Shown: piece after piece, positions 15,340 to 44,454 of the stretch
Layout of the letters: every line of letters starts with the position of its first letter
Position numbering within the stretch: position 1 is the first letter of the stretch
NCBI RefSeq assembly: GCF_019059575.1
Contig: NW_024881679.1
Location: forward strand, 372,001 to 436,000
Direction: 5' to 3'
Origin: Amphibalanus amphitrite
Lineage: Eukaryota; Arthropoda; Thecostraca; Balanomorpha; Balanidae
DNA: 64,000 bases
Program-made: the position numbers and the translations under genes
Notes under the pieces: model-generated
Database searches by the model: none
What the model was told of the DNA's origin: nothing
The model's input: the letters and a program-made list of their open reading frames with translations, nothing else

Positions 15340-15944
15340 TTAACCCGGCGGCCGCTGGGCCTCCGCGCCACCCGCCGGCCGCTGGGGGGGGGGGGGCATA
15401 TAGTTGCCCCCCCTTTACTTCTGCGACGATATCGTCGCAACGCGAAGAGATAGAGAAGCGAAACTTTGCACATATCTTCCTGAATACCTAGCCGAGGTTG
15501 TGTCCAAATTTGGTGTTGATCCCATTTGAAATGACGTCACAGTGACGTCATAAGTGAAATTATAGATTTGCGACTCTCATATTCCTCACGATACATCAGA
15601 TATACGGGACCGAATATAAAGGACCGATTATTGGTCAGAAACTAGATGGAAGTGTAGTTAGATGTTTTAGGATGACAGCAGGTGCTGTCTAGTTCATTTA
15701 CAGTTGATTTTCATGCTCAGCGTCATCAGAAACGGTCCATATCGGAAAACGGCAAAACTTTATGACGTCACTGTGACGTCATCTTAGGTGCTACAACCAC
15801 CAAACTTTCCACAAACATTGCCTAGGTATTCATTTGAAGCTATGTTAAGTTTCACGTTCGTAGGTCATCAGGTTTCGGAGATATTTCACAAAACGTAAAG
15901 GGGGGGCAACTTTATGCCCCCCCCCCCAGCGGCTCGTGGGTTAA
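15340..15944. mobile_element. piggyBac-like TTAA MITE (A1)
   Basis: TTAACCCGGCGGCCGCTGG at the left and TTAACCCACGAGCCGCTGG, inverted, at the right. Inside each end is a G-run, a tip (GCATATAGTTGC left, GCATAAAGTTGC right) and a C-run. The left end repeats the GGCCGCTGG motif after a spacer of about 30 bp, so it is the long end. 605 bp, no transposase. Its right TTAA is shared with the next element. Confidence 0.85.
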
Positions 15945-17130
15945 CCCGGCCGGGCCCGGGGGGTAATCCCAACCACCGCAGCCCGGGGGGGGCGTTTTTC
16001 GCCCCCCCTTGTCTAACTCCGTAAATAAGGGAGCTACGGAAACAAAAGCGATACCAAACGAAAGGTCCTTACGAGACGATTCTAATGCACCTAAAATTTT
16101 TGACCTCAGGTCAATTTTCAAGGTCAGAGGTCTAGGTCAAAGACCAAAACCGGCACATGTGTAGTGATCTCAAAGTAAGCCTTCTAGAGGACGGCAGGCT
16201 GCATCAAACCGGCAAAATTGGGTGTCAAACGAAAGAAGAGAATCTGAGGATTCTGAAAATGTGCTCCAAATAAAAGGTCAAGGTCAAGGTCACGCTCAAA
16301 ATTGACCTCAAACTTGGCACTTTTTCGCACATCTTGCGTGCTAACTTCCAAGATGTTTTGAAATGTTTTGAGGCTTATCAGTTCCCTATTTGTGGTTCAT
16401 CTTAGGATACAAGGCTGCTCAAAGGTCAAGGTCACAGAAGAGTATCCCTGCTAGAGGCTATTTCACTGATTCAAGTAAGCAATAATAAATAAGACAATTT
16501 TGCCATCCGGAAGCTCTAAATGAATGCTTAGAGGAAAATAGATGCCAGATTCGTGATCAGCGGGTACAAATCCATCATAAACGACCTTTCATGTGTCAAG
16601 GTCAACCAGAGGTCATTCGAGGTCACATGAGGTCAACATGAAACTTGACCTTTTCCGAACAAAATATATATCATTCGACGCGGCTTGACAAGGCGAATGC
16701 GATGGTACCACTGCCGTAGCTCTAGGACCATTTTTGTCAAAGTTATTTGCGAAAAACTAAAACCACATTTCGGGGTCGTTGACCTGACCTCTGACCTCAG
16801 GTCACCAAAACTATTTTTCTATTTTTCTCTAGGTCAAACGCTACACAGCCGTGCTCGTAATTTGTCTTTAGCTCTAAAACTCTATTTTTAGCAGCTATTT
16901 GAAATTTGCGTCTGTGACGCCGAAGTTTGCCGTGCAGGGGTCTAGAAAAATAGATCTTGTGACGTCATCAAGGGGGCTAGGTCCAAATTTTTTACTTCAG
17001 AAGATGTCAAATTGATGGGAGAAAAGGTACTGAAAGTTTCGCCTTTCTATCCCTAAGCGTTCGGGAGTTATCGCAAATATTCGCCAGGGGGGGGGGGGCG
17101 AAAAACGCCCCCCGGGCCCGCGAGGGTTAA
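15941..17130. mobile_element. piggyBac-like TTAA MITE (A2)
   Basis: The ends start TTAACCCGGCCGGGCCCGGG and, inverted, TTAACCCTCGCGGGCCCGGG. Both lead inward to a G-run, GCGTTTTTCGC and a C-run. The left end is the long-spacer end. The interior is rich in AGGTCA, including three head-to-tail copies at 16275-16292, and has the core motif ATATCATTCGACGCG near 16670. About 1190 bp, no open transposase. Confidence 0.87.
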
Positions 17131-17623
17131 AGGGACCCTCCCACCTTCAAAAAAGTTAATGAATTGGCATGAAAGTGATGTCCCTTGGTTCAGAAAGGGC
17201 GAAAACGAATATCTACCAAATTTCACCGAAAAATATTCACTGGTTTTCAAGATATTAGGCTTTTACTTTTGTTTACTATTTGGGATCTCCCCTGTTACTA
17301 GCGACTTTATTTGGAAGCAATAATTTGGCAGCCTTAAAGTGCGGCAGACGTTGCGCGCAAAGCAGCGTATACCACCACGTGTTAACGATGGTTTTAGTCT
17401 AAGATTTAAAAATCGTTAGGTCTCCGCTGACGTCACAAATTCTAAGGGGGCATTCCAATGCATTAGCCCCTTAGAATCCGAAAACTGCAAGTTTGAAATT
17501 CCATATCTTCGAATTAAAGCATTTTTCGATGTTGTGAGTGCCCAAACCGGTATTTGCAGGCCATGGCCACCAATTTGGCTATCTCAACTCAAAACTAATG
17601 TTAAGGTGGGAGTGTCCCTTTAA
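17127..17623. mobile_element. TTAA-flanked MITE, second family (member 3)
   Basis: The left end TTAAAGGGACCCTCCCACCT shares its TTAA with the preceding element. The right end, inverted, reads TTAAAGGGACACTCCCACCT. Right inner sequence GGCTATCTCAACTCAAAA matches 14541-15045. 497 bp, non-autonomous. Confidence 0.83.
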
Positions 17624-18655
17624 CGCGTGTCGCGTCTCAAATATAGCGACACGTGAATGTGTGACACGTATAGAAAGGGAGTAAACTCTCCAAGAAAGTG
17701 CTGATACTGCCCCTCAATAACGGATCGACCCTCTGGTATGGGTCGTTCATCAGGATTCAGGTGGTCCCCCTCCATGAATTGGCCACCAGGCACCAACATT
17801 AAAATGTGACAGTTGATCATTTCTTATTATTTCATTCTGCTATATGTTGGTGACCATAAATCATAATACCTTAATTGTTATTTGTTTTTGTTAAATATGC
17901 AGGTTTCCTCTCTTCACTCTTGCATACTGAATTTTGACCTTGCATTTAAATGGGTTAGTCGAGATCGTATGACAAGAACAGATACCTATCAGAAATCGCT
18001 ACCTCGAACTACGAATGTCGGTCTCCCAATTAACTAGCCAATAAATAGACCTCCATATACCGCTATATGCGGCATACAAAGGTCTATGCTACATTGCTAC
18101 AACATTTACAATACAACTCTCCTTGCAACTCGGCGGGGTGAATTGTGCACTGTGATCTGTAGTCACTGCTGACGTGTGATTTTGATAGTTTGCTATGTGT
18201 AACGCCTGGCAAGTGTGGCTAATGTGGGAAGACGTGACCTTTACAATGCTTTTTGCTTTAGCTTATTGAACGTTGGTGTGCTTGCTTCATCGCATTTGCA
18301 TTTGAGAGAAACATAGGTCAGTTACATGCCTTTGACACCTACTTTACCATTTTCGAAGCATTCTTAACACTTCCGTCTCTTATTGAATTTGTCTTATTGA
18401 ATTCAGTCAAACAAAGTTACATGCATAACGTCCGAAACCAACTTTATTCGCAATCAGGGGACCAACAGCCACTCAACCATGCCTCTTCCTCGTGCAGACA
18501 GTGTACCCACGTGTGTGCCAGACTGGTCCCACTTTAGGAGAGCGGGCAACAATGAACATTGCTAACATTGATTCGAAACCGCGCAATGCCCGTATTGTTC
18601 TAGGCGGAGACTGCATCCCTCGTCTGTGTGTTTGACGGTTGGGCTCTGTTGGCAG

Positions 18656-18701
18656 GGCGCTGGCGATAGTTTTGTGCGCCCTGACTGTTGTTGCCGACCC
18701 G
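18656..18701 (+). CDS. Col4a2: alpha-2-type collagen IV exon 2 (signal peptide, second part)
   Basis: The acceptor CTCTGTTGGCAG and donor CCCGGTGAGTACC bound 46 bp. The first base completes Gly-12; then ALAIVLCALTVVADP follows in frame, phase 0 at the end. Joined to exon 1 this gives a clear hydrophobic core with a likely cleavage after VVA. The next exon continues QYSLSG. The exon is too short for length-based gene finding. The exact frame fit on both sides is the main evidence. Confidence 0.82.
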
Positions 18702-18919
18702 GTGAGTACCTGGCTAATGGCCACACACAATCGAGTATAACTTTGAACTGGTTTATATTGTTTGGTTATTCAACATAGCCTGAAGGCTATGTTTGAAGGA
18801 ACATGACCTTTTGTGAAAATATGACTTTTTGCCTCGCCAATATGCTAACATTAGGTATTTTCGTAGTTCACAAATTTTGATTTCGTGGGATGATCCAATT
18901 GCTACCGTTTATTTATTTA

Positions 18920-21900
18920 TTTGTCCCCACTGCAGGGGGTGATCTACTTCCCAGCCGATCTCTCATCCCCGATCGTCTCCGCTGAACCCCCGCGGCCTGC
19001 AGCGCGGCCAACTGACAAACACAGCACGTCCCGGCGGCCGGGCGGGCGGTGTTCCAGGCCGACCCCGAGCTGGCCGAGCCGGGGCGGGGGCGGCTGTGAG
19101 TCAGGCTGGCGTCCGTCCAGTGCCGCCGCCGCCGCCGAGCTGTTGACATTGCGGACTTCTCGCCGTCCTCCGGCCGCCCCCGCCCCCGCCCCCGCCCCCG
19201 CCCCCGCCCCCGCCCCCGCTGCGCCGTCTGGGGCTGGTGTTGGTGCAGCTGCACAGAGAGCACGGCGGCCCCATCCGGTCCCGTCCGGCCCGCTGTCCGC
19301 AGCGCGTTCCGTCAGTCCTCTGCAGTCACATCCACACAGTACAGCCTCAGACACACTGCGGGGACGGCAGTCCGGTCTCAGACACACTGCGGGGACGGGC
19401 AGTCGGTCACAGTTCGGTCTTTGACACGCCGCGAGCAGGACCGTCTGCCTGGCCTCAAGAATGCTACAGCTCGTGTACCTAAAGTCACTCATTGCAGCGT
19501 CTCGCTAAAAGTCTGTTCATTACAGTCCGTCAACCCGAAGTCAGTTTCAGTACAGTTGGTGTGCGCTGAGTCAGTTACATGTCAGCCCGTCTGCTCTGAG
19601 CCAGTTACGTTACTGTCCTGTTTGTTCAGTCTCGCCAGTCACTCTTCAAAGTCGTCATCCTAAGTAACCGAGGCGCGCCTCACGATCGTCCGTGACCGCC
19701 GGAGAGCCGCCTGTGACCGCAAGGCCTCTGGCGCCGGCCAGCGGACCCACGCGGCATCTCGGGCAGGTCCGGTTCACTCTGTGACCCGGGCTATCGCCCT
19801 CGGGCGGCCGAGGCACGTGCCGCAGGGCCGCCGCGCCGCCGCCGCGCCGCTCCACTCTCAGCTGGTCGGCGCTCGGTGACGAAATCGCCCGGTCTCGGCC
19901 GGTATAGCGGCACGCCCGGTGCAGTGTGTGGCGTGTGGCTATCCATCTCCCTCTCACGGCCGGTGACCGAGGCGGGGTCACTGCCCCCCCCCCCCCCCCG
20001 CGGCACCAGCCAGGTCGCTCAGAGGGTACAGCTGCTCCGTTAGGTCACCGACGGAGCGGGACGGATGTGTCTGCGGCTAGCCCGCCGCCAGCTGGACCCG
20101 CCGCCCCCTCCTCCGCTCGCGGTGCCCCCGCCCCCGCTCGCCGCCCCCGCCGCTGCAGGCGGAGTGTTGCACAGCTGCGTGAGTTCACGACAAAGTCGCA
20201 TATTGTGCGGACCGGGCCCGGATCTCTGTCCCTTCCTCTGTATGAAATACTGACGTCAACATTGGTCTCGGTCGAATCTGGATTCGCTCTGTGGTGGATA
20301 GAAGCGCTCCTTGTTGACTCGGAGCTGAAGATTTGCTCTTGCCTTCTAAATGCCCATACCGTCATCCCTATGTTGATGTGTTTGACTTCTGGCTTCGATT
20401 TGTGTTATTTAGCGTCGTATGAAACACGAGAATTACGGCAAATCCTTGGCTACACTACCTTAGCAACTAGCAAAGAGCAAAGGTAAAGTAAAGAGTAGCA
20501 CAGAGTTAGGTACTCTGCTCTTATCATTCATGATCAACTGATAGGCATGAATGTAAACGTTGCAGTCTTGATGTTATCTCGGCTCGTTGCTATACATACT
20601 CTGTATGCGTTCCCGATGTGTACTGTCTCGAGGTTGTCAGCGTAACGGTCGTAAAAAGCAACAGACTGATCACAATGCAAACATGCACATCGGCTCAACG
20701 GCAGTCTCAAACAAGCGTTTGCGTGGATGGCGTCCTGTGCCAGCTCGAAAAATCTTCAAATTTTATGATAAGACGATTTGTTCATGGTATGTGTGGCGCA
20801 GATAAGGCTCATTCAGTCTGAACGGCGCCGATATGGGCACTCAGAGACGGCGGCTCCGATAGTGGCGCAGATAGACGGGCCTGTCGATATGGCGAACGCC
20901 GATTTTCTGAAGAGTGCGTTAGCGGAGGCCCATGAATTGTGTGTTCTACTGCCTTATTTTGATGGTCATTGACCGGGATAACGCTCAAGTTTCCTGATCG
21001 CCAAATCGACTGCCGCTGACGGCCCAATCTGAGGCTACAATCGGCTCAACTGTTTGTGAATGGCTTGGCAACAAGCCTGCACCGCTCTATCACTGTGCCA
21101 TTACGGAACGTGGCGGCAGAGTGACATGTCGCCAATCGACGGCGCTACAAGCTCGGAGACAGACGACTGACGGGGTGAAACATAACGGCCGATCCGTCAG
21201 GGAGAACCAACAGCGCTGTCAGACTCCACAGAGCTGTCAGCTGGATTCCCGAAGTGACAGGCCACTCTCTAGTTTCCCACGTGGAGGATAGGCCGGCCGA
21301 CGCACTGGGGCACCGCCCGTCCCCTCCCCCTCCGTCGAGGCGCGGCCCACTATTTCGGGGCGGGCTGCGCGCAGTCCGTCGGTCGCGGGTGGTCGCCGCT
21401 CCTCAGAGGCGCTCTCAGTTCAAACGTATATCTGCGGCGCTGTATGTGGGTCAGCGGGCGGCCGAGCGGCGCGTTTCGTCGGCCGGGGCGCTGAGTTCCG
21501 GATACCGCGGGGGCGGGGGCGGCCGGCAGATGCCCCCAGGTCGGCCGGGACGCTGGCGCCGGCGCTCATGACGCGATGGTCGGTCGCGGCCGCCAGCGAA
21601 CACGGCCGGCTGTTTACACGGTCCGACATCCGACTCCGGCCCGGTGCAGGCTGCACAGAGTTCTCAGACGCCGCCCCCGCCCCCGCCCCCGCCGCCGCCG
21701 CCGCCGCCAGTGCACCAGACCGTCCCACACCAGCCGAGCAGGATGGTCTCAGACTCGCTGAAGGCGCCCAGCCGTGCCGTATTGTGCAACGGAACCAATC
21801 ATTGGTTATGGAAGTGATGAATAATTAATTTGCGGGCGTCTATGCACTCCTTGCTTCACCCGTAGATCACAGATGAACTCGCTCACTCGCTGCACTGGCT

Positions 21901-22600
21901 TGCTTATTAGCAAGCTGCCCGTTGCTGTTGATTTCTAAGTCTACATTATTTTACTTGGTACCCTATCTGCTTATCTTGTCTATAGCCATTACCTCATATC
22001 TACCTGTCATTCTATTAATAGTGAAGGCTAAACCACAAATCGTAAATCAAACCCCAGTCGCCGGAACCCTGACAAAAAGCGCCACCATGTTTATCTTGAT
22101 AATTGCGCTTTTTGTGGTCCGGAAACACGGCACATTTGACGCCGGTGGTCTGCGGCACGCGTCGCCGTTTTTACCCGCATCGGCCGTGCAGGCAAACATT
22201 GGCAAACACCGCGCACCAATGGGCTGTCGCTGCTGAGAGGAGCGTGCGTGTGCGTGTGTGTGCGTGTGCCACGGCGCGTGAGGGACGAGCAGCGGCCGGC
22301 GGGCGGAGAATGTCGCCCGTTGAGACAGAGCACGGTGGTTGAAAAGAAGCAGAGAATATCGCCCTATGAGACAGGGCACGGCGGGTGAAAAGAATCAGTG
22401 GTCACGAGTACGACGGCCGGCCGGAGGGCTATGGAACCCGTGACAGCGTCTCACATCACCCCTCCCTGGGTGTCAGTGCCTTCTGACCGAGGCCGCTGCA
22501 GATCTCTGAGTGGCGGCAGCCGCGGTCTTGGCAGAGGTCCCCGTCTCAGCTGAACAAATCCTCCGGCATCCGGCGGCCGGTTTCCGGTCGTTCTGAGACC
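18920..22600. other. CpG-rich blocks in intron 2
   Basis: Two dense GC/CpG clusters (about 18.95-20.2 kb and 21.25-22.5 kb) lie between more AT-rich DNA. They contain runs of CCCCCG (19174-19219, 21668-21705) and a long C-run (19984-20000). Many long open frames on both strands arise from base composition. They could be regulatory or non-coding first exons, but no splice-supported gene model was found. Confidence 0.45.
19174..19219. repeat. (CCCCCG)n tandem repeat
   Basis: About seven to eight copies of a CCCCCG hexamer. The Gly/Ala- and Pro/Ala-rich frames across it are artefacts. Confidence 0.95.
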
Positions 22601-25212: not shown

Positions 25213-26405
25213 TTAACCCGCGCCCCACTGGGGTCTGTGTAAAACACGCCCTACTGGGGGGGGGGGGGGGCTATTCATAGCCCCCCCCTCCTAACTCCGA
25301 AACTACTGGACCGATCGTCAAAATTCAAACGGCGTCTGATAGCCCCGGAAAAACTGTCGAGCAAAACCTAATTTCATTGACCTCGAGGTCACCGATGACG
25401 TCACAGGTCAGGTCAAAGTAAAAATTATTAGCACTTTGGCTTGTTCACATTTCAATTTTGGGCTCTGGCCGCCGTCTAACAAGTCAGATCAGGCTCATTT
25501 TTGGATTCCACACTCGTGAACAGATGCTCTAGATACCTTGAGGGTACCAAACTTGTACTTTGATTTTCAGGTCAGGGTCAGGTCATCACAGGTCACGAAA
25601 ATATTATATCATGCATGGGTCGCGTGACACATGTTTTATGGTCCATTTAGTCCATAGATTTCGCATTTGATGTCGTCTGTGTCATTCGAGGTCATTTTGA
25701 GTCGAATTTAGCTTAGGTCAGGTCACTTTCAGGTCAAAAAAGGTCAAATTTTGAAGTTGAAATTTTTCAACAAAAAAGGTGTCTATTGGATGCAGTTTGA
25801 GCTCAGGAACACGATGGTGCCATTAATATTGGTGTACGATGCCAAATACGTACTGAAAAATTGATTTAAAAAATTAATAATTGTGAATTTTTTGCAATAA
25901 TGCGTATAACTTGGCCATTTTTGAAGATATTTTGCTAAAACTTGCTAGAGTTAGTCATAATCATGCGTTCTGTCACATATATTCCGGTTTTTTCGAAAAG
26001 TCAAAAACTTTTTGAAAAAAAATATAAAAATATAAATTTTGAATATTATTATGTAAAATTTTCGAAATTTTCAACATTTTGAAAATTTGAGATAGCAGTT
26101 TGATAGCGCGGTCAATCCTGAGTCCTTTCATGCAAAGAAATTGGATCTAGCTTAAAAACTGAGCTCTTGGGAGCGATTGCCGTGGTTCAATGTTTTGCGT
26201 CAAAATCGGACGAACATGACGTCACTCTGACGTCATTTCCGGCCGACCTATGGTAGCTACGAAGTTCAAATTTTGACACAAGGTGTCAAATTGATGCAGC
26301 CGAAGGTACTGAAAGTTTGGCGTCGATCTGTCAAGCGGTTTGGAAGTTATTGCAGAAAAACGGGAGGGGGGCTATAAATAGCCCCCCCAGTGGGGCGCGG
26401 GTTAA
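25213..26405. mobile_element. piggyBac-like TTAA MITE (B)
   Basis: Both ends begin TTAACCCGCGCCCCACTGG when read inward, and both lead to a G-run, a tip (GCTATTCATAGC left, GCTATTTATAGC right) and a C-run. The left end has a long spacer with a repeated CTACTGGGG motif. The interior has many AGGTCA half sites (for example around 25570-25600 and 25720-25745). 1193 bp, no transposase. Confidence 0.88.
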
Positions 26406-26598
26406 CTCACTGTCGTAAACTGATCAGTGCGACTAGCCCGCCGTGCTTCGGTGTATGGCGGTACAGTCTATATCACCAACCAGAGATACCGATATGCGTC
26501 CGAAACAGCCGATGACAGCGCGACCGGGCTGTAGCCGCTCAGGTGCACACAAAAAAAAATAATTACACTCTTCGGTTCTTCGGAGCCAAGTACTCCCA

Positions 26599-27802
26599 TT
26601 AACCCGCGCCCTGCTGGGGGGGGGGGGGTGTTTGAACACCCCCCCCCCTGTGGTTTTTCGCGAATATCTCAAAAACGGCGGCGCGGAGCGCCGCCGTTTT
26701 TGGTACACCTTATCATACATCAATTCTACACATGTTGTGAAAATTTCAGACCAAGGTCATTCAAGGTCAGGTCACCAGGTCACTCGAAGTGACCTCACCT
26801 CATAAAAAGTTTCAATGTCTGTCATAGCTACACCGAGTGACCGATCGCTTTGAAACTTTCAGCGATTGCTAAGAGCATTAGCATGTACAAAATGTACATC
26901 TCAGAATTTTGATATCGATGACCTAAGGTCAGGTCAATTTTGCGACCTCACCATTATAAGTCAATGGGAGAAAATTGAAATGCGCCTGTTTTGGACGAAA
27001 GACATTATAAACACTCCCAAACACTGAATTACAAGTGGTTTAGACACACTGAACATGAAAATGGTGTCTGTGACCCCTGTTTATGCCCTGAGGTCATCTT
27101 AGGTCACGAATGGTATCTAACAGTTTTTCGCAAATAACTTTTGATAGAGGCATGCTAGAGCGATGAAAACGCCTTAGATGTGTTCAGCTCGACGATACGG
27201 ATCGACTGATATGCAACATGACCCTTTCCGGTCAGGTCATGACCTTGACCTGAGGTCAAATTTTCAAGTTGACCTTTCAAGGTCAAATTATAGTTCGTTC
27301 GATGCGTCTTGACGAGAGGAACACGATGCCGGTAAAAGTAAGCTCGTACAATGCTTGGGTCAAAAGTTATTGCAGAAAAACTGTTTCCGAAAAAAATCGG
27401 CTATTTTTGCAGTTTTTGCCCCCTGCAGGCAAAACCGTTGACGTTAGGTCAAATCTGAGAAAATTACTCAGAAAGGGCGTTAATAGGGCTATCGAATGCG
27501 CTTTTCCGCGGCGCTGTAGCTCTATTAGTTCCCGAGTTATGCGTTGGCTTCTTGGAAATTTTCGACATTCGACCTGGAAATCGGCGAAAATTTGCCTTCA
27601 ATGACCTCTGGTGACCTGACCTTTGACCTGACCAAAAAATTGACCGAAGTGATTTCCTCATTATTTTTGACGCTCTTTCGAACGCCGCCTTCCGCGTATC
27701 GCTACGTGGCCCAGGAGCCGAGTTAGAAGGGGGGGTGTTCAAACACCCCCCCCCCCCCAGCAGGGCGTGGAAATCCAGGACCCCCAGCCGGGCGCGGGTT
27801 AA
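26599..27802. mobile_element. piggyBac-like TTAA MITE (C)
   Basis: The left end TTAACCCGCGCCCTGCTGG and the inverted right end TTAACCCGCGCCCGGCTGG both lead to a G-run, GTGTTTGAACAC and a C-run. The right end is the long-spacer end with a repeated CCCTGCTGGGG. The interior carries AGGTCA clusters (26755-26790, 27230-27290). 1204 bp; inserted into the left arm of the foldback element. Confidence 0.88.
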
Positions 27803-27811
27803 GATGCTTCC

Positions 27812-28900
27812 TTAACCCTCGCCGGCCGAGGGGGGGGGGGGGGCGCGGGTGCCGCCCCCCCATAGGGTTTTTTCGCGATAGCTCCGAACACGCTGGCGAT
27901 AGAGAGCTGAAACTTGGCATACCTGACCTTTGATCCAAGCCGGATCTTTTGACACCAACCGCATTTTTGGGTCAGGTCAGGTCACTGACCTATGACGTCA
28001 TAAGTGAACCTCTGCACGGTCTTCAGATGTCGCAACTTCGCAACGCCCTCACTGCCAGAGGAGATGTCACAGGGAAATGAAACTTGCAGGATCTAGTATC
28101 CATTATGAGTCCCACAACTTGTATATCTCGGATTTTTCCTAAATGTCATATGAGGTCAGGTCATTTTCGTGACCTCACCATTATAAGTCAATGGGGAAAA
28201 ATTCAAACTGCTATTCTGGCGCCGGGAACGATCTCCAACTATCTCAAGCACACAGAATCGTGATTTTATGCACTCCTTGCAAGGTTAGGTGCGTCACTTT
28301 TGCAATGTTGACCTTGCGTGACGTCATTTATGACGTCATCAAGGTCATATTAGTTTTTCGTCAATAACTCTTGATCAAATTGAGCTAGCGAGTCGGGAAA
28401 GCCACCAATGGACTCAGGAAGACCTGCCAAATCGAATGATATGCGACATTACCTCTTTCAACCAACTTCGTGACCTGGGGGTGTTGACCTGACCTTGACC
28501 TGAGGTCAACACCCCAAGTTGACCTGACCCGGACAAAAAGTATATCATTCGACGCGCCTGAGCGAGACGAACACGATGCTGCCAAAATCGGCGCTCTGCG
28601 GCCGTTTTTTTGCGTAGTTATTCACCAAAAACTGAACCGTACCTTGGGGCACTTGACCTGACCTCAGAGGTCACTGGTTGACCTAGGACATTAAAATCGG
28701 GTACCAATCTCTGCGTCTCGTAACTCGGGACGCTCGTTTTTTTCTGAGTGTGTCAAGTGTTGGTCAACACGTGACGCTCGTTTTTTCCGCGACGCGCTAG
28801 CTCCACCAGGGGCGAAACGGCGAGGGGGGGGGGGGTCGTACCCGCCCCCCCCCCTCGGCCGGCGCGTATGTAGAAAACCAATAGGTCCGGCGAGGGTTAA
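27812..28900. mobile_element. piggyBac-like TTAA MITE (D)
   Basis: The left end TTAACCCTCGCCGGCCGAGG and the inverted right end TTAACCCTCGCCGGACC both lead to G-run/C-run hairpins with GC-rich tips. The right is the long-spacer end. The interior has AGGTCA arrays and the inverted core TCGAATGATAT (28432) to ATATCATTCGA (28542). It also carries a GAGTGTGTCAAGTGTTGG stretch copied from or shared with the foldback arm. 1089 bp. Confidence 0.87.
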
Positions 28901-28915
28901 CTCACTCTTGCGCGC

Positions 28916-33371: not shown

Positions 33372-33663
33372 CGGCGTCGCAGATACCGCAGAGATCTGCA
33401 GACCAAATTTTAGAGACTAAGGTGGATTGCCAACCTTATTACTGAATCAGCGCCTTGATCTCATATAAACCTATCATGGACCGGGGACTGCCGATCTAAT
33501 CTTACGTATTAAAAGGTAGTGTATGAAGGTCAAATGGGACCGTTCAACCAGCCAAGGTCATCATGACTGATAAATCCCATCGACCTGGGTGCTGCATTGA
33601 ACACGATCGCATGACCCACTGACTCAGCACGGTCCTGAAGTGGTGGTTGGCGAACCGAAAACG

Positions 33664-34223: not shown

Positions 34224-34246
34224 TAACTGGTGACCTGCCCGACGTG
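34224..34246 (+). promoter_or_regulatory. Putative primer-binding site
   Basis: The sequence starting TAACTGGTGACC directly follows the 5' LTR, where a tRNA 3' end primes minus-strand DNA synthesis. The tRNA species was not assigned. Confidence 0.6.
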
Positions 34247-34328
34247 ATTGTTTTGCCTGCTTTTCCTGTGCTTTTGTTGTCATTTTTTTGTCTGTTTTGT
34301 TGATTGACCTCCCCACCTGCTCGTCGTG

Positions 34329-35213
34329 ATGCCTGACCCTGTTGATGATGGCCGTGCCCTCTCCGGTGACACTGTTGTCCCTGTGACTGGGGGTGCAGCA
34401 GCAGCAGCTGCTCCAACTGACTCTGCCGCTGGTGCTGTCCAGCACGTGTCAGTGAAGCCACCAGCCTTCATGGAGACGGCTGTCCAGGGCTGGTTCGCGA
34501 TCATGGAGGCCCAATTCCATCTGGCCAAGATTACCAGCGACACCACCAGGTTCTACCACGTCCTGGCTGCCCTTCCGCCCACCACAGTCTCCAAGCTTGA
34601 CACATCAGTGCTTGGTTCGAGCAGCTATGCAACCCTGCGGGATGCTGTGTGCTCCCTCTATGAGCGGACTAGGTCTGAGCTATTCGATCAGCTCATCAGC
34701 AAGGTCCAACTGACCGGACGGCCTTCTCTTTTCGTCAGAGAACTACAGGAGATTGGCTGCAAGGTGGGGGTCGGCGACGACCTCGTGAGACACAAGTTGC
34801 TCCAGAGCCTGCCGCCCACCGTGGGAACTGTCCTCGCAGCCCAGCGGGACCTCACGCTCCACCAGCTGGGCAAGCTGGCCGATGAACTGATGCCTCTGCT
34901 TCAGACGTCCTGCTTAGCAGCAACTGCCCAGCCTCAGCCGCCCTCGACCAGTCAGCAGCAGCACCAGTGGGACCATCGTCCTGCCGCCCGATCCAGTGGC
35001 CGCAGTCGGGATGGACCTCTACCTGCTGCCAGCTCCACTCCACGAGGCCTGCAGCCATTCTACAGAGACCAGCGACCACAAGTCTGCAGGGCGCACCTGT
35101 ACTTCGGCCAGGAGGCCCGCACGTGCAAGCCCTGGTGCCGGTGGCCGAAGAAGGGGGACGCCAAGATGGAGCCCTCCTCCCGGCGTGGTTCTCCCCAGCG
35201 TCCGGGAAACTAG
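34329..35213 (+). CDS. gag: gag polyprotein of the LTR element
   Basis: 294 residues from the ATG at 34329 to TAG at 35211. An Ala-rich N-terminus is followed by a capsid-like region ([20 protein letters not shown]). Near the C-terminus is a [14 protein letters not shown] zinc-finger-like motif, of the kind seen in Gag of many arthropod Ty3/gypsy elements. The protein forms the virus-like particle. Translation ends at the TAG right after the frameshift site, which would yield Gag alone most of the time and Gag-Pol occasionally. Confidence 0.88.
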
Positions 35214-35250
35214 AGGGGCAGGCCCTCGCGACTGCGACGCGCGGCCTGCC
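35204..35250 (+). promoter_or_regulatory. -1 ribosomal frameshift signal (GGGAAAC plus stem-loop)
   Basis: A slippery heptamer G GGA AAC lies in the gag frame at 35204-35210, immediately before the gag TAG. Six bases later GGCAGGCC (35217-35224) can pair perfectly with GGCCTGCC (35243-35250), with an inner CGCG/CGCG extension. Spacing and geometry match known -1 frameshift signals, and the pol frame is exactly -1. Confidence 0.88.
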
Positions 35251-38200
35251 ACTCTTTCGAGTCGCAGCCCAAGCTGGAGTCAGCACTCTACACTTCATCG
35301 TAGACACTGGAGCCGGCGTCTCTCTGGTGCCTCAGGACGTCGTCAAGGGAGCCATCCTGCAGCCGACAGCTGTCCGCATCACCACCGCCAGTGGAGCGCC
35401 TCTCCCAACGCATGGTGAAGTACTGCTCTCCTTCGTCATTCCTGCCCTCCGCCGTTCTTTCCTCTGGTCGTTTGTTGTTGCTGACGTCACAGCTCCCCTG
35501 CTCGGCCATGATTTTCTTGCCCATCACAACCTCCTTGTTGACTGTGGTTCCCAGACTCTCCTGGACTCCGTGACCTCCCTCCGTTCTCCAGGTGCTCCCG
35601 TCGACCGCCCCGGTCCCGGCGCCTTCCTGGTCAACCAGAGCGACAGTCTACCACCGGAGGTCCAGACACTCCTGCAGCAGTTCCCCTCTCTGCTGATGCC
35701 GCTGCAACTGGGAACAGAAGCTGATGCGTGCCCGATTCCAGCCTCCCACAACATCGACACCGGCAGCTCTCCACCGACGTTCGCCAGTCCGAGACGACTC
35801 CCGCCGGACAAGCTGGAAGCTGCCAAGAAGACGTTCGACACCCTGCTGGAGGCTGGCATCATCCGACCGTCCAACTCTCCCTGGGCATCGCCTCTGCACA
35901 TGGTCCCGAAGAAGACACCCGGGATGTGGAGAGCGACAGGGGACTACCGCGCGCTGAACGGCAAGACCAAGCCAGACCGCTACCCGCTGCCACACATCCA
36001 CAGCATCAGCACCCGTCTCCATGGGATGCGTGTGTTCTCCAAGGTGGACCTGCTGAGAGCCTATCACCAGATCCCTATGTCGCCACAGGATGTGGAGAAG
36101 ACGGCTGTAACGACACCATTCGGCGCGTACGAATACGTGTTCATGCCGCTGGGCCTGCGGAACAGTGGGGCTACATTCCAGCGTGTGATGGACCAGCTGT
36201 TCCGCCAGGTCAGCTGCGTCTTCGTCTACCTGGATGACGTCCTGATCTTCTCGCCAGACGCAGAGCAGCATCACAAGGACCTTCAGACCGTCCTCGGCAT
36301 CCTCCATCGACACCGGCTAAGGATCTCGCTGGACAAGTGCGACTTCTTCAAGCCGCAGGTGGTCTATCTAGGCCACACCGTCTCCGCCGAGGGGCTCCGG
36401 CCGCCAGACGCCAAGATCGAGGAGATCGCGGATCTGCCGACTCCACCGGACTCCACAGCACTCCGCCGATTCCTCGGGATGGTCGGGTTCTTCCGCCGGA
36501 TGATCCCACACTTCGCCGAGATCGTCCACCCGCTGACAGAGCTGATGAAGCACAACCAGAAGAGCACCAACCTCCCGTGGACCGAGACGGAGCTCGCCGC
36601 CTTCACAGACATCAAGGAGGCACTGCAGACAGCATGCACCATCCGACATCACCTGCCGTCCTGTGAGACCTACCACCTGGTCACCGACTGCTCACAGGTG
36701 GCAGCCGGTGCAGCTCTGTACCAGATCGCGGACGGTCAGCCTGTCCCCGTCGGCTTCTTCTCCAAGAAGCTCAGCGACCAGCAGAGGCGATACTCAACAT
36801 ACGACCGCGAGCTGCTGGCCGCCTACCTGGCCGTGCTTCACTTCCGTCACCTGTTGGAAGGTCGTGTCGTCGCGCTCTTCACTGACCACCGGCCGCTCAC
36901 CACCGCGTTCCTCAGCCCGCAGACGGCCAAGTCGGACCGTCAGCAGCGGCACTGGAGCGTGATCTCCGAGTACGTCTCCTCCGTCCAGTACGTGCGCGGG
37001 GCTGACAACGTGGTCGCTGACTGTTGGAGTCGCCCTGTGACCCCCGACGCCCTCAGTCCGCCCGACCAGAGCTCCGAGACCTCGCCACCGACAGGATCAC
37101 TCCTGACCACACTGGGCAGCGCGGCTACCGCGCCCGTCGGTGCGGGTGCGCGCCCTGAGTCGCCTCCGGTCACCGTACCGGACGGCGCGCGCGCGCGCCC
37201 TGTGCCGCCTCCGGTCGCCGCACCGGTCGCCGCGCGCGCGGTACGCCTCGAGCCGCCACCGGTCGCCGCGCCGGACGGTGCCCGCGCGCGCTCGGAGCGG
37301 CCACCTGTCGCCGCACCGGACCGCGCGCGCGCGCGCCCCGATCCGCCGTCTGCTGCGCTCAGCAGCACCGCCGCCGACACTGGCATGACCCCGGTGACTG
37401 CTGCGCCGCACCCGGCCACCGAGTCGCTGGCGGCTGCCGCGCCACCGAGCACCACGCCTACAGCGTCAGTGAACGCCGCCACCGTGGACGCCGCCGACCT
37501 GCACGCCATCGCCGAGGCTCAGAGGGACGACCAGGAGACAGCTGCCTACTCGGACCGGCTGACACCCTTCCCGTTGTCAGCTGATCTCACCGTCCTCTGT
37601 GATACCACTCTGACACTTCCCAGGCCGTTTGTCCCAGTCCCCCTCCGCACTCATGTGTTCGAACAGGTGCACAGCCTCGCTCATCCTGGTGTCAAGGCCT
37701 CCCTTCAGCTGGTCAAGTCGCGCTACTTCTGGCCCGACATGGACCGCTGTATCCGCCGGTGGGTACGCGAGTGCTCCTCCTGCCAATCGAGTAAGGTCCA
37801 CCGCCACACCAAAACCGTCCCGTCTCCGTTTTCTCTCCTCAGCGACAGGTTCGAGACCATCCACATAGACATTGTCGGTCCTCTGCCGCCATCAATCCCT
37901 CACGGTGAGTCTTTCACCTCCCCGTGTCGGTACCTCCTGACGTGTGTTGACCGTTCCACCCGCTGGCTGGAGGCGGCCCCTATCGCCGACATCTCAGCAG
38001 CCACCGTCGCAGCCGCCTTCATGGACGTCTGGGTGGCCCGGTTTGGTGTGCCGCTGCACGTCGTCACCGACAGAGGTACTCAGTTTGAGTCCGCCCTCTT
38101 CCGACAACTGGCCGAGATCCTCGGCTTTCACCGCCTGCGGACAACGGCGTACCACCCCAAGACCAACGGCATGGTGGAGCGTCAGCATCGGACGCTGAAG

Positions 38201-39013
38201 TCAGCCATCATCGCCAGCAAGAAACAGTGGTTACAAGCACTACCTGTGGTCCTCCTGGGCATCCGGGCGGCCATGAATGAGACTGGCTATGCGCCGTTCA
38301 CTGCCGTCACCGGGGGCATGCTGTTGCAGCCCCGGATAAGAGTGGACCGGCAGCCTGCTCCGGACGGCGCCGCCGAGACCGTCGGGGAGCTGGCCCGCCG
38401 ACTCGCCAGGACAGACTTCCTCTCGCCGTCTGAAGGCAGCCACCATGGACTGACCCAGCCGCACATGCCGACCGACCTCTCGACGTGTTCACACGTCTGG
38501 CTGCGGGTTGACCGCGTGCGCCGCCCTCTGGAGGCGCCTTATATCGGCCCTCTGCGCGTCCTCAGGCGATGGGATCGCTGGTACCAGCTGGAGCTGCCGT
38601 CGGGGAAGAGTGACACCGTCTCGGTCGAGCGGCTCAAGCCAGCATACCTACCGCAGTCACCGCCGCCGGGTGGGCTGGGCGGTGCCGATGCCGCACCGCC
38701 CCTGCCCCCCGTGCAGTCCGGTACAACCACATCGCCGTCGGTGGAGCCGGGCCGCGCCGATGCCGCGCTGTCCCCGCTTCCCGGCCTGGCCAGCGCTGCA
38801 CCGCCTGTGCACGCTTCATCATCGCCGCCAGCGGAGCCGGACCGTGCTGACGTAGCGCCGCCACCATCTGCTCCGCCACGTCGTGGTCGCCGTCTTGGGG
38901 GCCAGAGCTCGGCGCCCGCGTCGCCGCCGTCGCCTGTGCCTGTTCGTCCACAGCGAGACGCCGTGTACACTCGTGCTGGTCGCCGCGTTCGGTTTCGTGT
39001 TCCACCCTCGTGA
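35210..39013 (+). CDS. pol: pol polyprotein (PR-RT-RH-INT) of the LTR element
   Basis: Read after a -1 shift at 35210 this gives 1267 residues to TGA at 39011. Protease motif VDTGAG is at about 35300, RT catalytic YLDD at 36227-36238, and RNase H TDCSQ at about 36680 with TDHRPL at about 36880. The integrase zinc region (H...H...CSSC) is at about 37650-37790. The DDE core shows IDIVGP (37868), TDRGTQF (38070) and NGMVERQ (about 38166). A C-terminal GPY/F-like IGPL...VERLKP stretch follows (38540-38640). A 120-residue Ala/Pro/Arg-rich linker separates RNase H and integrase. No stop codon or frameshift interrupts it. Confidence 0.9.
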
Positions 39014-39043
39014 GTTTTTTTTATCTTTTCCCGCTCCGCTCTT

Positions 39044-39055
39044 AGGGGGGGGAAG
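39044..39055 (+). promoter_or_regulatory. Polypurine tract
   Basis: AGGGGGGGGAAG lies just before the 3' LTR, the expected primer for plus-strand DNA synthesis. Confidence 0.85.
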
Positions 39056-39058
39056 TAC

Positions 39059-39618
39059 TGTGGTGCCGCGCAGCCCACCGGCACATTATTTAGTTGCGGC
39101 GTCTCCGCCCAAGTGCGCTATTGTTTTGTCGCGTGTGCGCAAATACTGTTTCCTTTTCAAGTACCTTCTGATCTCGTTTTTAGTATTATATTTAAATCGT
39201 ATTATCTTCGCTATTGTCTTAAGATTATATAATGTTACTTGCGTTCTAAAATAAGTTTATTGTGCTTTAATTGGCGTAATTATTTCGTTGTTTTCTGTAA
39301 GCCCGTTTCTATCTTTTATCTAAAATAGTTTGTGTTTCTGGCACTGTCGCTTCCGCTCCGTTGTTATTCCGGCTCTCGTTACACAGTTGTTTCACATCTC
39401 GATATATCTACGCTAAATATAGCTTTTCTACAGTGCACAGTGGCGTCTGACAGGCTGAGTATTCGCGCGAGCTTTCCTCACGTTTTTCCTTAATTTTTAC
39501 CGCTGATCTCTCGTTATCTCGCTTACCTAAACATTGTCTTTCGTCCCACGTGTCATTTTGGCAGAACAATCATTTTCCTTCCAATCACAGAGCACGTAGC
39601 CTTTACCTGACCACTTCA
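39059..39618 (+). repeat. 3' LTR of the Ty3/gypsy-type element
   Basis: 560 bp matching the 5' LTR; followed by AACG, the target-site duplication. Confidence 0.95.
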
Positions 39619-41287
39619 AACGCGTCTTCTGGCGACTATCACCATTCCGCCAGGCGCCAGCAGGGCAAACCAAGAGCCGTCAGAACAGGCAAATATGGAT
39701 TAACCAGCTGCATCGCGATCTTTGGTGATTCGTCCTCAAACTTGAAGACGGTATTTACTTTCGATATATTTCAGATTTATATGTACGCTCGGTTTCAAGT
39801 AGTTCCAAACGTCTTGTTATAGCTTCTGGCGATAGGTATCCTTGCTGGCAAGATGAGACGAGCCAGCGTGGCCCGGCGCGGCGTCTCTTCGGCGCCAGCG
39901 CTAGCGCCATTGTCTGCACCGTCAGCCGTGGCTCGGGTAGCGGACTGTCCGGGTATCTTGTGTCTACCTTTAGAGAGCTCAATGAACGGAGTCGAGCTCA
40001 GCCGACAGAACGCCGCGTTTGAAGGGGTAGTCCCTCCGCCCCGGCTGGGCGTCAGGTCGCCGGAAGATGGCTCGATTTCTATAGACCTGTTTCTATGGCG
40101 TCTCGAAGACTGGTCACAGAAACGAACAGCGTGGCTATTTTACTGGCTTTTAGCTCGTAGTCGGGGCCCGTCATAGCCACCCGCCAACTGCGTGCGTCCG
40201 TCGGGGGCCGCCATGATCCAGTCAGGTGTCTGGATCATGTCTCTCGGCGGCTGTTTGAGGCGCTCTGTGAGCTGCTCCACGCCGTCCGACCGGCACAAAT
40301 CCATAGACCATCCCGGGATGACTCGCCTCTGCGCCTACCTTGGACTTTGTCTTCCCGAACATTCCACCCAAAGCCCGAATCAAGGGCACAACGAGATAAC
40401 TGAAGAGCGACTGCTCATTCGTCTACAGGAAAATGAATTTCCATTGTAGCTGTCCATTTCAACAAGTGGCTTGTCCGAGTGCTTTTTGCGATAGGACCAG
40501 TGCTTTTGCGACAGGGCCTACTTATCATCTGCTAAGTAGGCCGTCCTATTTAGTTGGCGCCCCCAGAGGGCATCCGGCATATAAAGACTACTTACTTCCC
40601 CGAAGTACAGATATCCTACTGCGGCACGGCATTTATGCCCGCCGGAGCACCTTTTGAACGCTGTGTGCTCCAGATAAAATTCATTCATCTGGCTTGCTCA
40701 AGCACACAAGCGTCGGTATAACTGATTGTTTAGGCCCCACGTAGACCGGTTTTTGACTGGGTGACGTGACTGGAGGTCTGGGAAGCGTCAAACGTGGAAG
40801 ACTGGAGAACGCAGGTGTGACTCGGCCTTAGCTGAAAGGGGTTACGTCAGCTGGCGCTCCCGTTCTGACCTCACACCGCTCCCTGTCCCGTGTCTTCCTA
40901 GATATAAACACCAGGACTTGCTCACAAACGGCACCGAAGCCGACTGTTCGTCCGTTCTTCCGAGCCACGCTGCTTTGAAAGGCGCAGGCAGTACTCGCGG
41001 AAACATGGCTCCCCTTTGTATATTTGACTTTTGGATCCGGAAACCTGTAACAATCTATCTTGTGAAGTCTGAGCTGTGAACTCTGAAGTATACCAATATT
41101 CGATACCGTCACTTAGAAAATAGCCGGATTGCGTGAATTACTGTAAATGGCGTAACGATGCCCACTAGACGATCATCCATCAACTCTTGCGAAATCTTAC
41201 GTACCTACTCTTACGCACGCACAGTACGCAACGCATTGTTTGAGTTTGTTCATGTGTCGCTGACCACTATGTTTGTCCTTCTTACAG

Positions 41288-41455
41288 CAATACTCACTGA
41301 GCGGCCGGAACGACAACATCGGGTACGGTTTCTACCAGTCTCGGCCAGGTCAGACGGACATAGACCAGGACATTGACCCAAGAACGGGCCGGCCGTGTGG
41401 CGCCGGCGGCTGCGGCGCCGGCGGCTGCAAATGTGTCGGCGAAAAGGGCAGCCGG
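41288..41455 (+). CDS. Col4a2: alpha-2-type collagen IV exon 3 (7S domain)
   Basis: The acceptor GTCCTTCTTACAG and donor CGGGTGAGTTT bound 168 bp, phase 0 to 0, residues 28-83. A non-collagenous lead (QYSLSGRNDNIGYGFYQSRP) is followed by CGAGGCGAGGCKCVGEKGSR, the 7S cysteine cluster. Its spacing resembles alpha-2 chains (CxxxxCxxxCxC). This exon anchors the N-terminal cross-linking region. Confidence 0.9.
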
Positions 41456-42441
41456 GTGAGTTTGTGAGCGCCGATGGCCGCTCACGTGCTGCCGACGGCG
41501 TGGGCCGTCCTGCAGCGTCCAGCCACCCCACTGGCTGCTGGGGATCGGGGGAAGGCCGGCCACTAGCGCTGGGCTGCAGAGCGTAGGTATAAGCTTTCTT
41601 TCACACCTTTGCACACCGCCAAATTACAGCACTGAAGGAACCGATAAAAGTGCCACTTTACAGGCAGTCAAGTTATATTGGTTCGGGTGATCCTATGGAA
41701 TCGCTGATGGCACATCGAGCGATAGGCTGGCTGGAACCAGTCAGCCAAGCCGATGTGTTTATTGACGCTACTCTAATAAGTGATGACTGATGACTCTGCA
41801 ACTTGCATGCACGTCATCAAGTACATGTCCTATATTTCTGTACTTTACCGGCGCAGATAAAATAATGCATTGAAACTTAATCGTCTGCGTACGTGGGCAG
41901 GACAACGTCTGTTTGTGTATTACTATCGTGAGCCTCCATAGCAACGAGACCCACTTCACTGTGCCGTTGATATAACCCTTTCACAAGTGCCAAGGACTCG
42001 GGTGGCTATCAATAGTCGTCACTCGTCATTGTTTGCAGGGTGTAAAATCGCACAGTGCATGTGACCTTATTTACGCTCACAGAAAGCTCGCTCAGTTTAG
42101 AATGTTGTATCCAGCTCTTTGAAACTGATGTGTTTATTGTTTGGCATTGAATAGTTTTAGTCACATGAAGCACTTTTTCGCTTTAACCTATACTGGGAAG
42201 GTAGGGCAATAATGCTTCGTTTTTTTATGAAAAGTCCGTTCTGAACCGTAAAAAGCCGCTTAGGTTTACGCTTTTTTTAAACGTTTTGATTGTATGGTTG
42301 AAAACGGTTTGGTCACTAACAGATGGTGAAGTCACGAATTCGTGAAGCACTGAGAGGAGCCGGGGCGAGAGACTGTTGGCCTTGAAACTCATCCTGCTGT
42401 GCCCACTGTATACCAGCCCATGACGTGATCTGTCGTTTCAG
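41456..42441 (+). other. alpha-2-type intron 3
   Basis: 986 bp; no recognisable feature. Confidence 0.7.
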
Positions 42442-42576
42442 GGCCCTCCCGGAGTGCTGGGGCCCACTGGACCCAAGGGCCAGCAGGGTTTCCCCGGAAT
42501 GGAGGGCCTGCCCGGACCCAAGGGCAGCAAGGGCGACACCGGCCCGCAGGGCCCCAGAGGGCTCCAAGGAGACCGG
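42442..42576 (+). CDS. Col4a2: alpha-2-type collagen IV exon 4
   Basis: The acceptor CTGTCGTTTCAG and donor CGGGTGAGTACC bound 45 codons, phase 0. Uninterrupted Gly-X-Y, starting [13 protein letters not shown] and ending GLQGDR, residues 84-128. Confidence 0.9.
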
Positions 42577-42806
42577 GTGAGTACCGCGGACGTCACTGAT
42601 AGACAATCGCGCTCCGTGTAGTGTGCGGAAGAATTGGGCGTTGCATCCACTCGAAGTCTAGACGTGTGTTGAAGAGGCTTTGGCCCTTTCTTATCACTCT
42701 GTCATCATATAAACTATATTGAGCGGGCAAGCTATGTCGGCACATTCTGTTACCAGGCGCTGCTCGGCCTGGCCCCGTCTGACCGTTTGACCCTGTCTTT
42801 GTACAG

Positions 42807-42914
42807 GGTAAAATGGGTCTGCCGGGATTCCCCGGAATTAACGGAATTCCGGGTCTTCCGGGCGAACCGGGCCCACGCGGCTTCCCCGGACTGGACGGCT
42901 GCAATGGCACTGAC
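42807..42914 (+). CDS. Col4a2: alpha-2-type collagen IV exon 5
   Basis: The acceptor CTTTGTACAG and donor GACGTGAGTACG bound 36 codons. It encodes [16 protein letters not shown] and ends GLDGCNGTD, the conserved Cys/N-glycosylation site of the 7S-proximal region, with the D before the GCNGT as in alpha-2 chains. Residues 129-164. Confidence 0.9.
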
Positions 42915-44454
42915 GTGAGTACGGTAGATTGCAGGTGGACTGGCTTGAAAACAGTGATGTAGGTGGATTGACTTAGAAACAGTGATGCGTGAATACTGAA
43001 TTGATGTACGCACAGTGACTTAACCCTCGCCCTGGCAGGGGGGGGGGTCGATGCGACCCCCCCTAAGGTTTTTCAAAGATAGCGTAAAAACGGCGGCGCG
43101 CAGCGCCGCCAAATTTGGCACAGCCTATGGGGCAACCTTTTTACATATGACCTGAAAATTTCAGGTCCGGGTGACCTTGGGTCAGGTCACCAGGTCAGAA
43201 AAACCGGTACAAGGTCATGGTCAAATTTCAATTTTCTTTTTGCACCTCTCCAACTCACAGTTTTCGACTGATTTCCTTCAAACTTTCAGGATGTGCTAAG
43301 TTCACCGAGTTGTATAACATATAGTCCGGCTTTTTTTAGGTCACTGACCTGAGGTCAGTTAGAGGTCATTACGTCGTAATGTTAAGCCTATGGGAAAATA
43401 CTAAATTCGGAAAATACTGGAGATATCCGCTTCGTTCTATCACTTTTGTGCTTTGAAACCACGGTACTTAACAGCAGGTCACTTGGTGCTTCTTTGTTTG
43501 GTGTACTTATCCATGGGTCAGGTCAAATGAGGTCAACTGAGGTCAAATGACGTTTTTGCCAATAACTTGGCACATAATGACACTAGAGCTTAAAAAATGG
43601 TACCATTGTGTTCCTGGTGATCAGCTGAATCGAATGATATGCGATATGATGCAATTTGGTTAACTTGAACTTAATTTATTAATTTAAGTTAACTTAAAAT
43701 TTAAGAAAAACTTTAAGTACACTTAAGCAAGCTGAAAAGTATATCATTCGACGCGCCTTGACGTGCTGAGTTCACTGGTGCTTTTCTTTTTTCTCTATCT
43801 TAATTAGATCAAAAGTTGTAAGCGAAAAACTTTCGACCTGTTTTTAGCGAAATTTTTACATTTATACCCCCCAAAACCCCCCTAAATATTGACCTAGAGC
43901 AACCAAATTTGCACAGGGGCGAGAACTCCAGAGGGCCCACCTACCTACCAAATTTGGTGTTTCTAGGTGCCATAGGAGCCAATCGCGAGGGGGGGTCGCA
44001 TCGACCCCCCCCCCCCTGCCAGGCCGTGTTATGAAAAATGCCCTGCCAGGGCGAGGGTTAAGGACTGACGTGCTGCGCACACAGTGCTTTATGGACTGAC
44101 GTGAGTACAGTGATGAAGATGGACTGACTTGACATCAATGATGTGTGAATTAATGGGCGCCGATGACCACTGTAGTCCGGCGCCCAAAAACCCCAATTCA
44201 TCATCACCATCATCGATGTGTGAATTGACGTGCGCACAGTGATTTACGGACTGATGGGAATACAGTGATGTATGGACTGGACTGACGTGAGCACAAGTGA
44301 TGCGCGGACTGACTGTAAGATACAGTGATATCTTGACTGATGTGATTTTTTCACTTTACCATAGCTGTTTAGCCTCAACTCTGTTTTTGATGAGACAGGT
44401 AAACCTTGTGGGAGTTACGAATGTCTATTGTGTCACATTGACTGACTGTTGCAG
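42915..44454 (+). other. alpha-2-type intron 5 with minisatellite and MITE
   Basis: A degenerate GGACTGACGTGAGTACAGTG-like repeat (about 42920-43019 and 44062-44345) is interrupted by the TTAA element at 43020-44061. A small GGCGCC-ended hairpin lies at about 44155-44190. Confidence 0.8.
43020..44061. mobile_element. piggyBac-like TTAA MITE (F)
   Basis: Both ends read TTAACCCTCGCCCTGGCAGG inward and both lead to a G-run, GTCGATGCGAC and a C-run. The right end is the long-spacer end with a repeated CCTGGCAGGGG. The internal core TCGAATGATAT (43630) to ATATCATTCGA (43741) is present, but between them AAGTTAACTTAA-type repeats replace the AGGTCA arrays. 1042 bp, no transposase. Confidence 0.9.

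Follow-up and report, generated by a model that had tools for sequence, protein, structure and literature searches.

The window analysed here, a 64 kb stretch of the Amphibalanus amphitrite genome (contig C182, positions 372001-436000; the genome comprises 807.55 Mb in 2644 contigs), contains collagen-like and retrotransposon open frames and, between positions 15340 and 44061, six elements that are the subject of this study. Each has TTAACCC at both ends, and each end continues inwards into a palindrome made of a G-run, a short tip and a C-run. No open reading frame of 150 aa or more overlaps any of the six, so they carry no transposase gene and count as miniature inverted-repeat transposable elements (MITEs). 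The features are as follows, the strand of an element being drawn from its short end to its long end.

15340..15944, minus strand: piggyBac-type MITE 15340, 605 bp; long end at 15340, short end at 15944; tips CATATAGTTG (long) and CATAAAGTTG (short)
15384..15413, no strand: long-end G-run/tip/C-run palindrome of MITE 15340
15900..15927, no strand: short-end palindrome of MITE 15340
15941..17130, minus strand: MITE 15941 of family D, 1190 bp; long end at 15941; an internal-deletion derivative of autonomous C412/C1318
15985..16008, no strand: long-end palindrome of MITE 15941, tip CGTTTTTCG
17087..17113, no strand: short-end palindrome of MITE 15941, tip CGTTTTTCG
25213..26405, minus strand: MITE 25213, 1193 bp; long end at 25213; tips CTATTCATAG (long) and CTATTTATAG (short)
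25256..25288, no strand: long-end palindrome of MITE 25213
26366..26388, no strand: short-end palindrome of MITE 25213
26599..27802, plus strand: MITE 26599, 1204 bp; short end at 26599; a 96% identical copy lies at L002
26616..26648, no strand: short-end palindrome of MITE 26599, tip TGTTTGAACA
27729..27758, no strand: long-end palindrome of MITE 26599, tip TGTTTGAACA
27812..28900, plus strand: MITE 27812, 1089 bp; short end at 27812; two unlike tips; a 92% identical copy lies at L008
27830..27861, no strand: short-end palindrome of MITE 27812, tip CGCGGGTGCCG
28824..28854, no strand: long-end palindrome of MITE 27812, tip CGGGTACGA
43020..44061, plus strand: MITE 43020, 1042 bp; short end at 43020; long end like that of autonomous family A
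43038..43063, no strand: short-end palindrome of MITE 43020, tip TCGATGCGA
43989..44016, no strand: long-end palindrome of MITE 43020, tip TCGATGCGA

It was found that the window holds twelve ends of the form TTAACCC, a run of at least six G, a tip and a run of at least six C, and that these are the two ends of all six elements. The complete signature was absent from 100 windows simulated by a first-order Markov model, and TTAACCC alone shows mild enrichment, with 15 occurrences where 7.1 are expected (2 of 100 shuffles reach 15). The original prediction had placed six elements at these positions, each with TTAACCC at both ends and with one short and one long end, and the sequence check bears this out in every case. 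At the long end the palindrome lies 26-28 bp further in, after a second copy of the motif. The G-run starts 17 or 18 bases from the start of TTAA at the short ends and 43-46 bases from it at the long ends, the shift being 27 in four elements, 26 in MITE 25213 and 28 in MITE 27812. The two tips of an element are identical in three cases (15941, 26599 and 43020), one base apart in two (15340 and 25213) and clearly unlike in MITE 27812 (CGCGGGTGCCG vs CGGGTACGA, edit distance 5). Six elements with asymmetric ends and G-run palindromes are thereby confirmed. The flanking TTAA that had been predicted is present on both sides of all six; MITEs 15340 and 15941, however, use a single TTAA (15941-15944) in common and not separate ones.

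The same plan was observed in 97 ends with TTAACCCG on the forward strand of contig C1 (43 short, 54 long), referred to here as the C1 sample. The G-run begins 10 nt past TTAACCC in 40 of the 43 short ends and 37 nt past it in 47 of the 54 long ends. Both ends were available for 20 elements (13 MITEs and 7 autonomous elements or copies), which displayed a shift of 27 in 14 cases, 28 in two (27812 and its copy L008) and 26 in one (25213); in the other three (L065, D and C) the start position taken by the script is not the true end, and a hand count on the junctions of element C gave 25. The most frequent short-end G-run is 7 (10 of 40), which with a tip of 9 nt puts the dyad at bp 25, the centre of the piggyBac palindrome. 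Palindrome quality was also compared between the two ends and a difference was rejected, as the short end was better in 4, the long end in 3 and neither in 11 of 18 elements.

In piggyBac of Trichoplusia ni (T. ni) a palindromic internal repeat is bound by a dimer of the cysteine-rich domain (CRD) of the transposase; the palindrome of LE35 occupies bp 17-33 with its dyad at bp 25, LE35 and RE63 differ by 28 bp, and in cells LE35/RE63 is the only combination that the native enzyme can both excise and integrate (PMC7351741). The elements described here share with it (LE35/RE63; PDB 6x67, 6x68) the TTAA target, the CCC termini, a PF13843-type transposase, a short and a long end with a duplication in the long one (28 bp there, mostly 27 here) and a palindrome dyad near bp 25. 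The elements had been called piggyBac-like and MITE-like, with a TTAA target and asymmetric ends, and all of this stands. The idea that asymmetric palindromic ends were undescribed does not, because LE35/RE63 of T. ni piggyBac follows the same plan; the asymmetry is therefore already known and not new.

Just inside the short-end hairpin, families with unrelated tips have a block in common (26599-26720, 43020-43130, L003, L005 and L028). It consists of GGTTTTTC or a similar sequence, a TATCTC-like box, and AAAACGGCGGCGCG with its inverted copy; a related TAACTC/TATCTC box is present directly inside a number of long ends. The block could serve as a third binding site or as a promoter, or it could reflect exchange between families. 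Within one element, the stretches immediately inside the two hairpins do not resemble each other.

A search of the genome for the piggyBac transposase family (PF13843) gave at least 116 matches. The search for an autonomous partner, which had been proposed together with the original prediction, recovered piggyBac elements of 4 to more than 6 kb with G-run ends. In family A, three copies of 3.97 kb (L054, L055 and L056) have a G-run short end 5' and a long end 3' of the transposase. T. ni piggyBac likewise has its short end 5' and its long end 3' of the transposase. A PF13843 DDE transposase lies between the G-run ends (E=2.4e-69), and a protein search with transposase A, which gave 71 matches, led to further families. 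Both ends were seen in family B (C33, 4.7 kb), family C (C702, about 4.1 kb) and family F (C1010, 4.8 kb, with a frame-broken gene). Family D (C412 and C1318, about 6.4 kb) displays its short end and its long-end hairpin, the outermost long-end bases lying beyond the fetched sequence; the two copies have the same flank and may be one insertion on two contigs. The inner stretches of C, D and F were fetched in part. In the C778 family the long end was seen, with another MITE between end and gene. E (C639) has a G-run long end nearby, possibly that of a separate MITE, and L040, which has a T. ni-type CRD, yielded no end of its own.

Transposase A aligns with T. ni piggyBac over residues 89-638, CRD included (E=2e-78, against 3.2e-30 for piggyBat), with 30.6% identity over 562 columns. 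The aspartates of tvDE, taDr (tcDn in piggyBac) and gvDt are kept in this alignment, and we take them to be the catalytic DDD. In a tree of 20 transposases A, C778, B and L040 fall together (96/88) and are joined with T. ni piggyBac (100/99); the tree program flagged piggyBat as a long branch and both reference proteins as deviating in letter composition. The Cys/His spacing of the T. ni CRD (C-x2-C...C-x2-C-x4-C-x2-H...C-x2-C) was recognized, by sequence pattern alone, in eight families (A, B, C, D, E, F, C778 and L040), and the other transposases with a readable C-terminus have a different cysteine pattern. A piggyBat-type lineage for transposase A was considered and rejected, as the protein is nearer piggyBac and its CRD pattern is other than the C1-like one. 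L022, the one transposase outside the lineage that was compared with the solved structures, is nearer piggyBat (1.7e-27) than piggyBac (6.8e-10). No G-run palindrome was found at the ends of the non-lineage transposases where their own ends were seen.

These results bear on the idea that the elements are of some other TTAA-targeting kind and resemble piggyBac by chance. Apart from the unusual G-runs nothing speaks for it. Elements with ends of this kind contain PF13843 transposases, and MITE 15941 derives from one such element, which refutes the idea for family D; overall we regard it as having practically no chance of being right. Bases 8-847 of MITE 15941 are 88% identical to the 3' side of autonomous D (L073) and bases 839-1190 are 83% identical to its 5' side (L088), with an overlap of 9 bp at the join, which makes it an internal-deletion derivative of D. 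The long end of MITE 43020 is 81% identical over 73 bp to the long ends of family A (L055 and L056). For MITE 26599 the identity to B is 67% across 634 columns, and that to F is 69% across 389. Among the autonomous families found, no partner was identified for MITEs 15340, 25213 and 27812.

Other candidate partners were rejected. The first 40 transposase loci (L009-L048) have, where seen, own ends of other kinds, such as TTAACCCATTAGTGCC, without G-runs, and at several of them no TTAACCC was found; only L048 (family B) and L036 (C778 family) among them belong to the lineage with G-run ends near. At L047 and L058 the nearby G-run long end points away from the gene. The Pfam CRD model PF13842 gave as a probe five matches, two of them above the cut-off and none among the 71 matches of transposase A.

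The tips at the two ends are strongly linked. In the C1 sample, where the tip of MITE 26599 is the most frequent one, the tips of a short and a long end differ by 1.1 edits on average when the inner motif is the same (324 pairs, 70% identical; this figure is inflated by multiple copies of one family) and by 5.8 edits when it is not (1998 pairs, 3% identical). Long ends of C1 paired with short ends within 2.5 kb gave 12 pairs, two of which use the same short end; the motif was the same in 11, and one base off in the twelfth. A table was also compiled with one row for each of 17 families or motif groups, the tips being picked by hand where a group had several. Its summed short-long tip distance is 19, and the smallest of 20,000 shuffles was 55 (0/20,000 as low). 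The two tips are at most two edits apart in 15 of the 17 rows and unlike in two (27812 and L045); the tips fall into about 14 types, several of which have a transposase of their own, and one tip is common to two rows (B and L028). The original prediction had named tips unlinked between ends across the genome as the finding that would speak against it; in this sample they are linked. It had also called the tips element-specific. They do match within elements and mostly diverge between kinds, but they are better called family-specific, as the motifs and tips of the window are seen again in numerous copies on another contig.

Matched tips could in principle be made alike by the copying of one end onto the other through gene conversion or template switching, with no role in recognition. 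The matching within elements and the differences between most families would fit this, and the G-run and C-run arms could pair and might promote strand exchange. However, several families keep fixed differences between short and long end. The family with motif GCGCACCGAC has CGGATATCCG at six of six short ends and CGGATGACCG at five of five long ends in the C1 sample (a short end with the variant motif GAGCACCGAC carries a third tip). With inner motif CCTACT, all three short ends have CTATTTATAG and the single long end has CTATTCATAG; outer motif GCGCCCCACT occurs at a second long end, which carries CAGATTCTG. Autonomous family A has TTGTATCAA at the short and TTGTTACGA at the long end in three copies, one short tip being without one base. 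Copying would erase such fixed differences and is thus disfavoured; we consider it very improbable. Of the two causes that had been proposed for matched tips, recognition by the transposase is the better reading, but coevolution of CRD and tip is not significant with seven families.

The tips are also palindromic beyond what their composition predicts, as 100 of 161 symmetric positions pair (mean of shuffled tips 44, maximum 64). This bears on the possibility that the function lies in the G-run and C-run arms, which might for instance form a G-quadruplex or cruciform, and that the tip is a free loop. The arms are indeed common to families with differing tips, and runs of 10-16 G are common. 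Free loops, however, would not be palindromic and conserved within families as the tips are, and this alternative seems to us quite unlikely.

The six elements are very probably MITEs of several sibling families in one piggyBac lineage that groups with T. ni piggyBac, and they would have been moved in the piggyBac way, which is the most likely mechanism. The transposase core of each family would bind the motif adjoining TTAACCC, and its two CRD zinc domains could bind the G-run/tip/C-run palindrome as a dimer. At the long end a second motif copy, with the palindrome about 27 bp further in, would make the ends unequal, as piggyBac synapsis requires, and cutting of the DNA presumably goes through hairpin intermediates. 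A MITE would be moved by whichever transposase reads its motif and palindrome, so that both ends carry the tip of that family; a recognition role of the tip is likely, and the tip may confer family specificity. The other five families of the window may have, or may once have had, autonomous partners. That the shift is about 27 bp here and T. ni piggyBac has 28 bp, although the proteins are 30.6% identical, suggests that the spacing is functional.

Several observations weigh against this interpretation. The length of the G-run ranges from 6 to 16 among sampled copies, and the most frequent run at long ends is 11 (11 of 47). The dyad has its median at bp 27.75 in short ends and at bp 56.5 in long ends, and in many cases it sits at least 3 bp past the place it has in piggyBac. 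Motif and tip are not strictly coupled: TGTTTGAACA accompanies both CCTGCT and CGGGCC, inner motif CCTGCT is also followed in one case by CAGATTCTG and in another by CATATTCTG, the partner of CCTGGT is CTATTTTTTG in the C1 sample and CCATTTTGG/CCAAAATGA in autonomous B, and the short-looking end L001:1529 bears the long-end tip CTATTCATAG. Similarity of CRDs and similarity of tips are not significantly correlated across seven families (r = -0.30, 528 of 5040 permutations, p = 0.10), and B and F disagree, with 57% CRD identity and seven tip edits. Except for C527 and C171 (family A) and three B copies, the lineage copies among the 71 matches are interrupted, frameshifted or partial. Searches for empty sites of MITEs 43020 and 25213 gave no clean empty allele.

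The spread in G-run length could be caused by slippage after insertion or by homopolymer errors in the assembly, and the lengths at the two ends of one element are not significantly correlated (Spearman 0.35, p = 0.13, 20 elements). The palindrome is found at the CRD position at both ends, and its exact place shifts with G-run length. The closest CRDs do agree in their tips (A with C778, and D with E, two tip edits each), and coevolution of CRD and tip is plausible.

These points also bear on the proposal that the tips are neutral family markers from one founder, and that only the TTAACCC-proximal motif confers specificity. As motif and tip are passed on as a unit, their linkage by itself proves no function; the correlation between CRD and tip is not significant, and one tip can occur with different motifs and the reverse. 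Against this, a founder whose ends already matched would still need explaining; the sequences inside the two hairpins are unlike, the tips are palindromic far beyond composition, and the equivalent palindrome of T. ni piggyBac is the site of a CRD that is required. On balance we think the proposal unlikely, and recognition of the tip by the transposase is preferred. A further step is offered tentatively, as having a little less than an even chance: a radiation of sibling families may have kept a common end scaffold (TTAACCC, motif, G-run arms and the shift of about 27 bp) and repeatedly changed tip and CRD together, each family moving its own MITEs and ignoring those of its siblings. If so, the motif, tip and CRD sequences of this genome would be raw data for a CRD recognition code.

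Compared with T. ni piggyBac, the arms here differ in being G and C homopolymers of variable length, and many sibling families with different tips exist in one genome; at the protein level, A and B have about 10-12 extra residues in the loop that separates the first CRD cysteine pair from the second. Another member of the superfamily, piggyBat of Myotis lucifugus (PDB 9c0f), has a repeated motif and after it an imperfect palindrome to which two CRDs bind, but its CRD is of a different fold and its palindromes, in three copies, are at the left end only (PMC11707139). In the present genome the piggyBat-nearer L022 has ends without G-runs. Diversity of the CRD is treated in PMC8086355. The CMITEs of Acropora corals are likewise TTAA-flanked MITEs in several families with different terminal repeats and a shared interior, and one family is thought to derive from a piggyBac-like element; they differ in being about 100 bp long with terminal repeats of 13-14 bp, and the portion of the paper available reports neither G-run palindromes nor short/long asymmetry (PMC2872659). 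Their interior is described there as more alike between families than their ends, and a similar pattern is hinted at here. A literature search found no description of G-run palindromes at piggyBac ends, though a search of titles and abstract beginnings in mostly open-access papers is weak.

The target site could be followed in one case. Element C (L067/L068, C702 at about 41275-45357) is inserted inside a copy of the 26599 family; ATAA is present at both of its junctions and only once in 26599 and L002, two copies that are uninterrupted. The insertion at C702 thus duplicated 4 bp of target, at a site one base off TTAA and so a non-canonical piggyBac target. For MITE 43020 there is weak support from a diverged tandem-repeat unit (44221-44302, 76% identical) that spans the insertion site with TTAC instead of TTAA.

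Forward-strand counts over the whole genome were 19,448 for TTAACCCG and 18,996 for TTAACCCT, and the reversed-pattern controls gave 0 forward and 1 reverse hit for each pattern. The reverse counts (63,387 and 66,249) are inflated, as the same reverse place was entered several times. The number of ends can be estimated at about 77,000, an extrapolation that assumes one count per forward end and equal strands. With a stricter pattern, in which a long G-run is required, the counts were 9,240 and 9,357, those of the controls being 197 and 201. The extrapolated number would make the lineage a notable part of the 808 Mb genome.

Our data indicate a real and abundant piggyBac lineage in which the plan of the ends is known and the CRD-type palindrome is unusual and diversified. 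What is unusual here is the homopolymer arms, the number of families and the estimated abundance. The transposon is widely used in genome engineering, and the reasons why piggyBac ends are unequal and how the CRD chooses its palindrome therefore matter. As tip types exist with their own transposases, binding and mobilisation can be compared between siblings, which provides a natural test bed for DNA recognition.

Some further arrangements of these elements were observed. On contig C1 (2188324-2190686) two long ends and one short end follow in series with a spacing of about 1.18 kb, possibly a tandem MITE. At L028:7-3825 a piggyBat-like transposon of the L022 type is inserted at TTAA inside a G-run MITE with two identical tips, and L056 carries a related copy of that MITE without the insertion. 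Over about 2.6-2.7 kb the L022-type copies (L022-L032) match L028 at 99.4-100% identity, which points to a recent burst.

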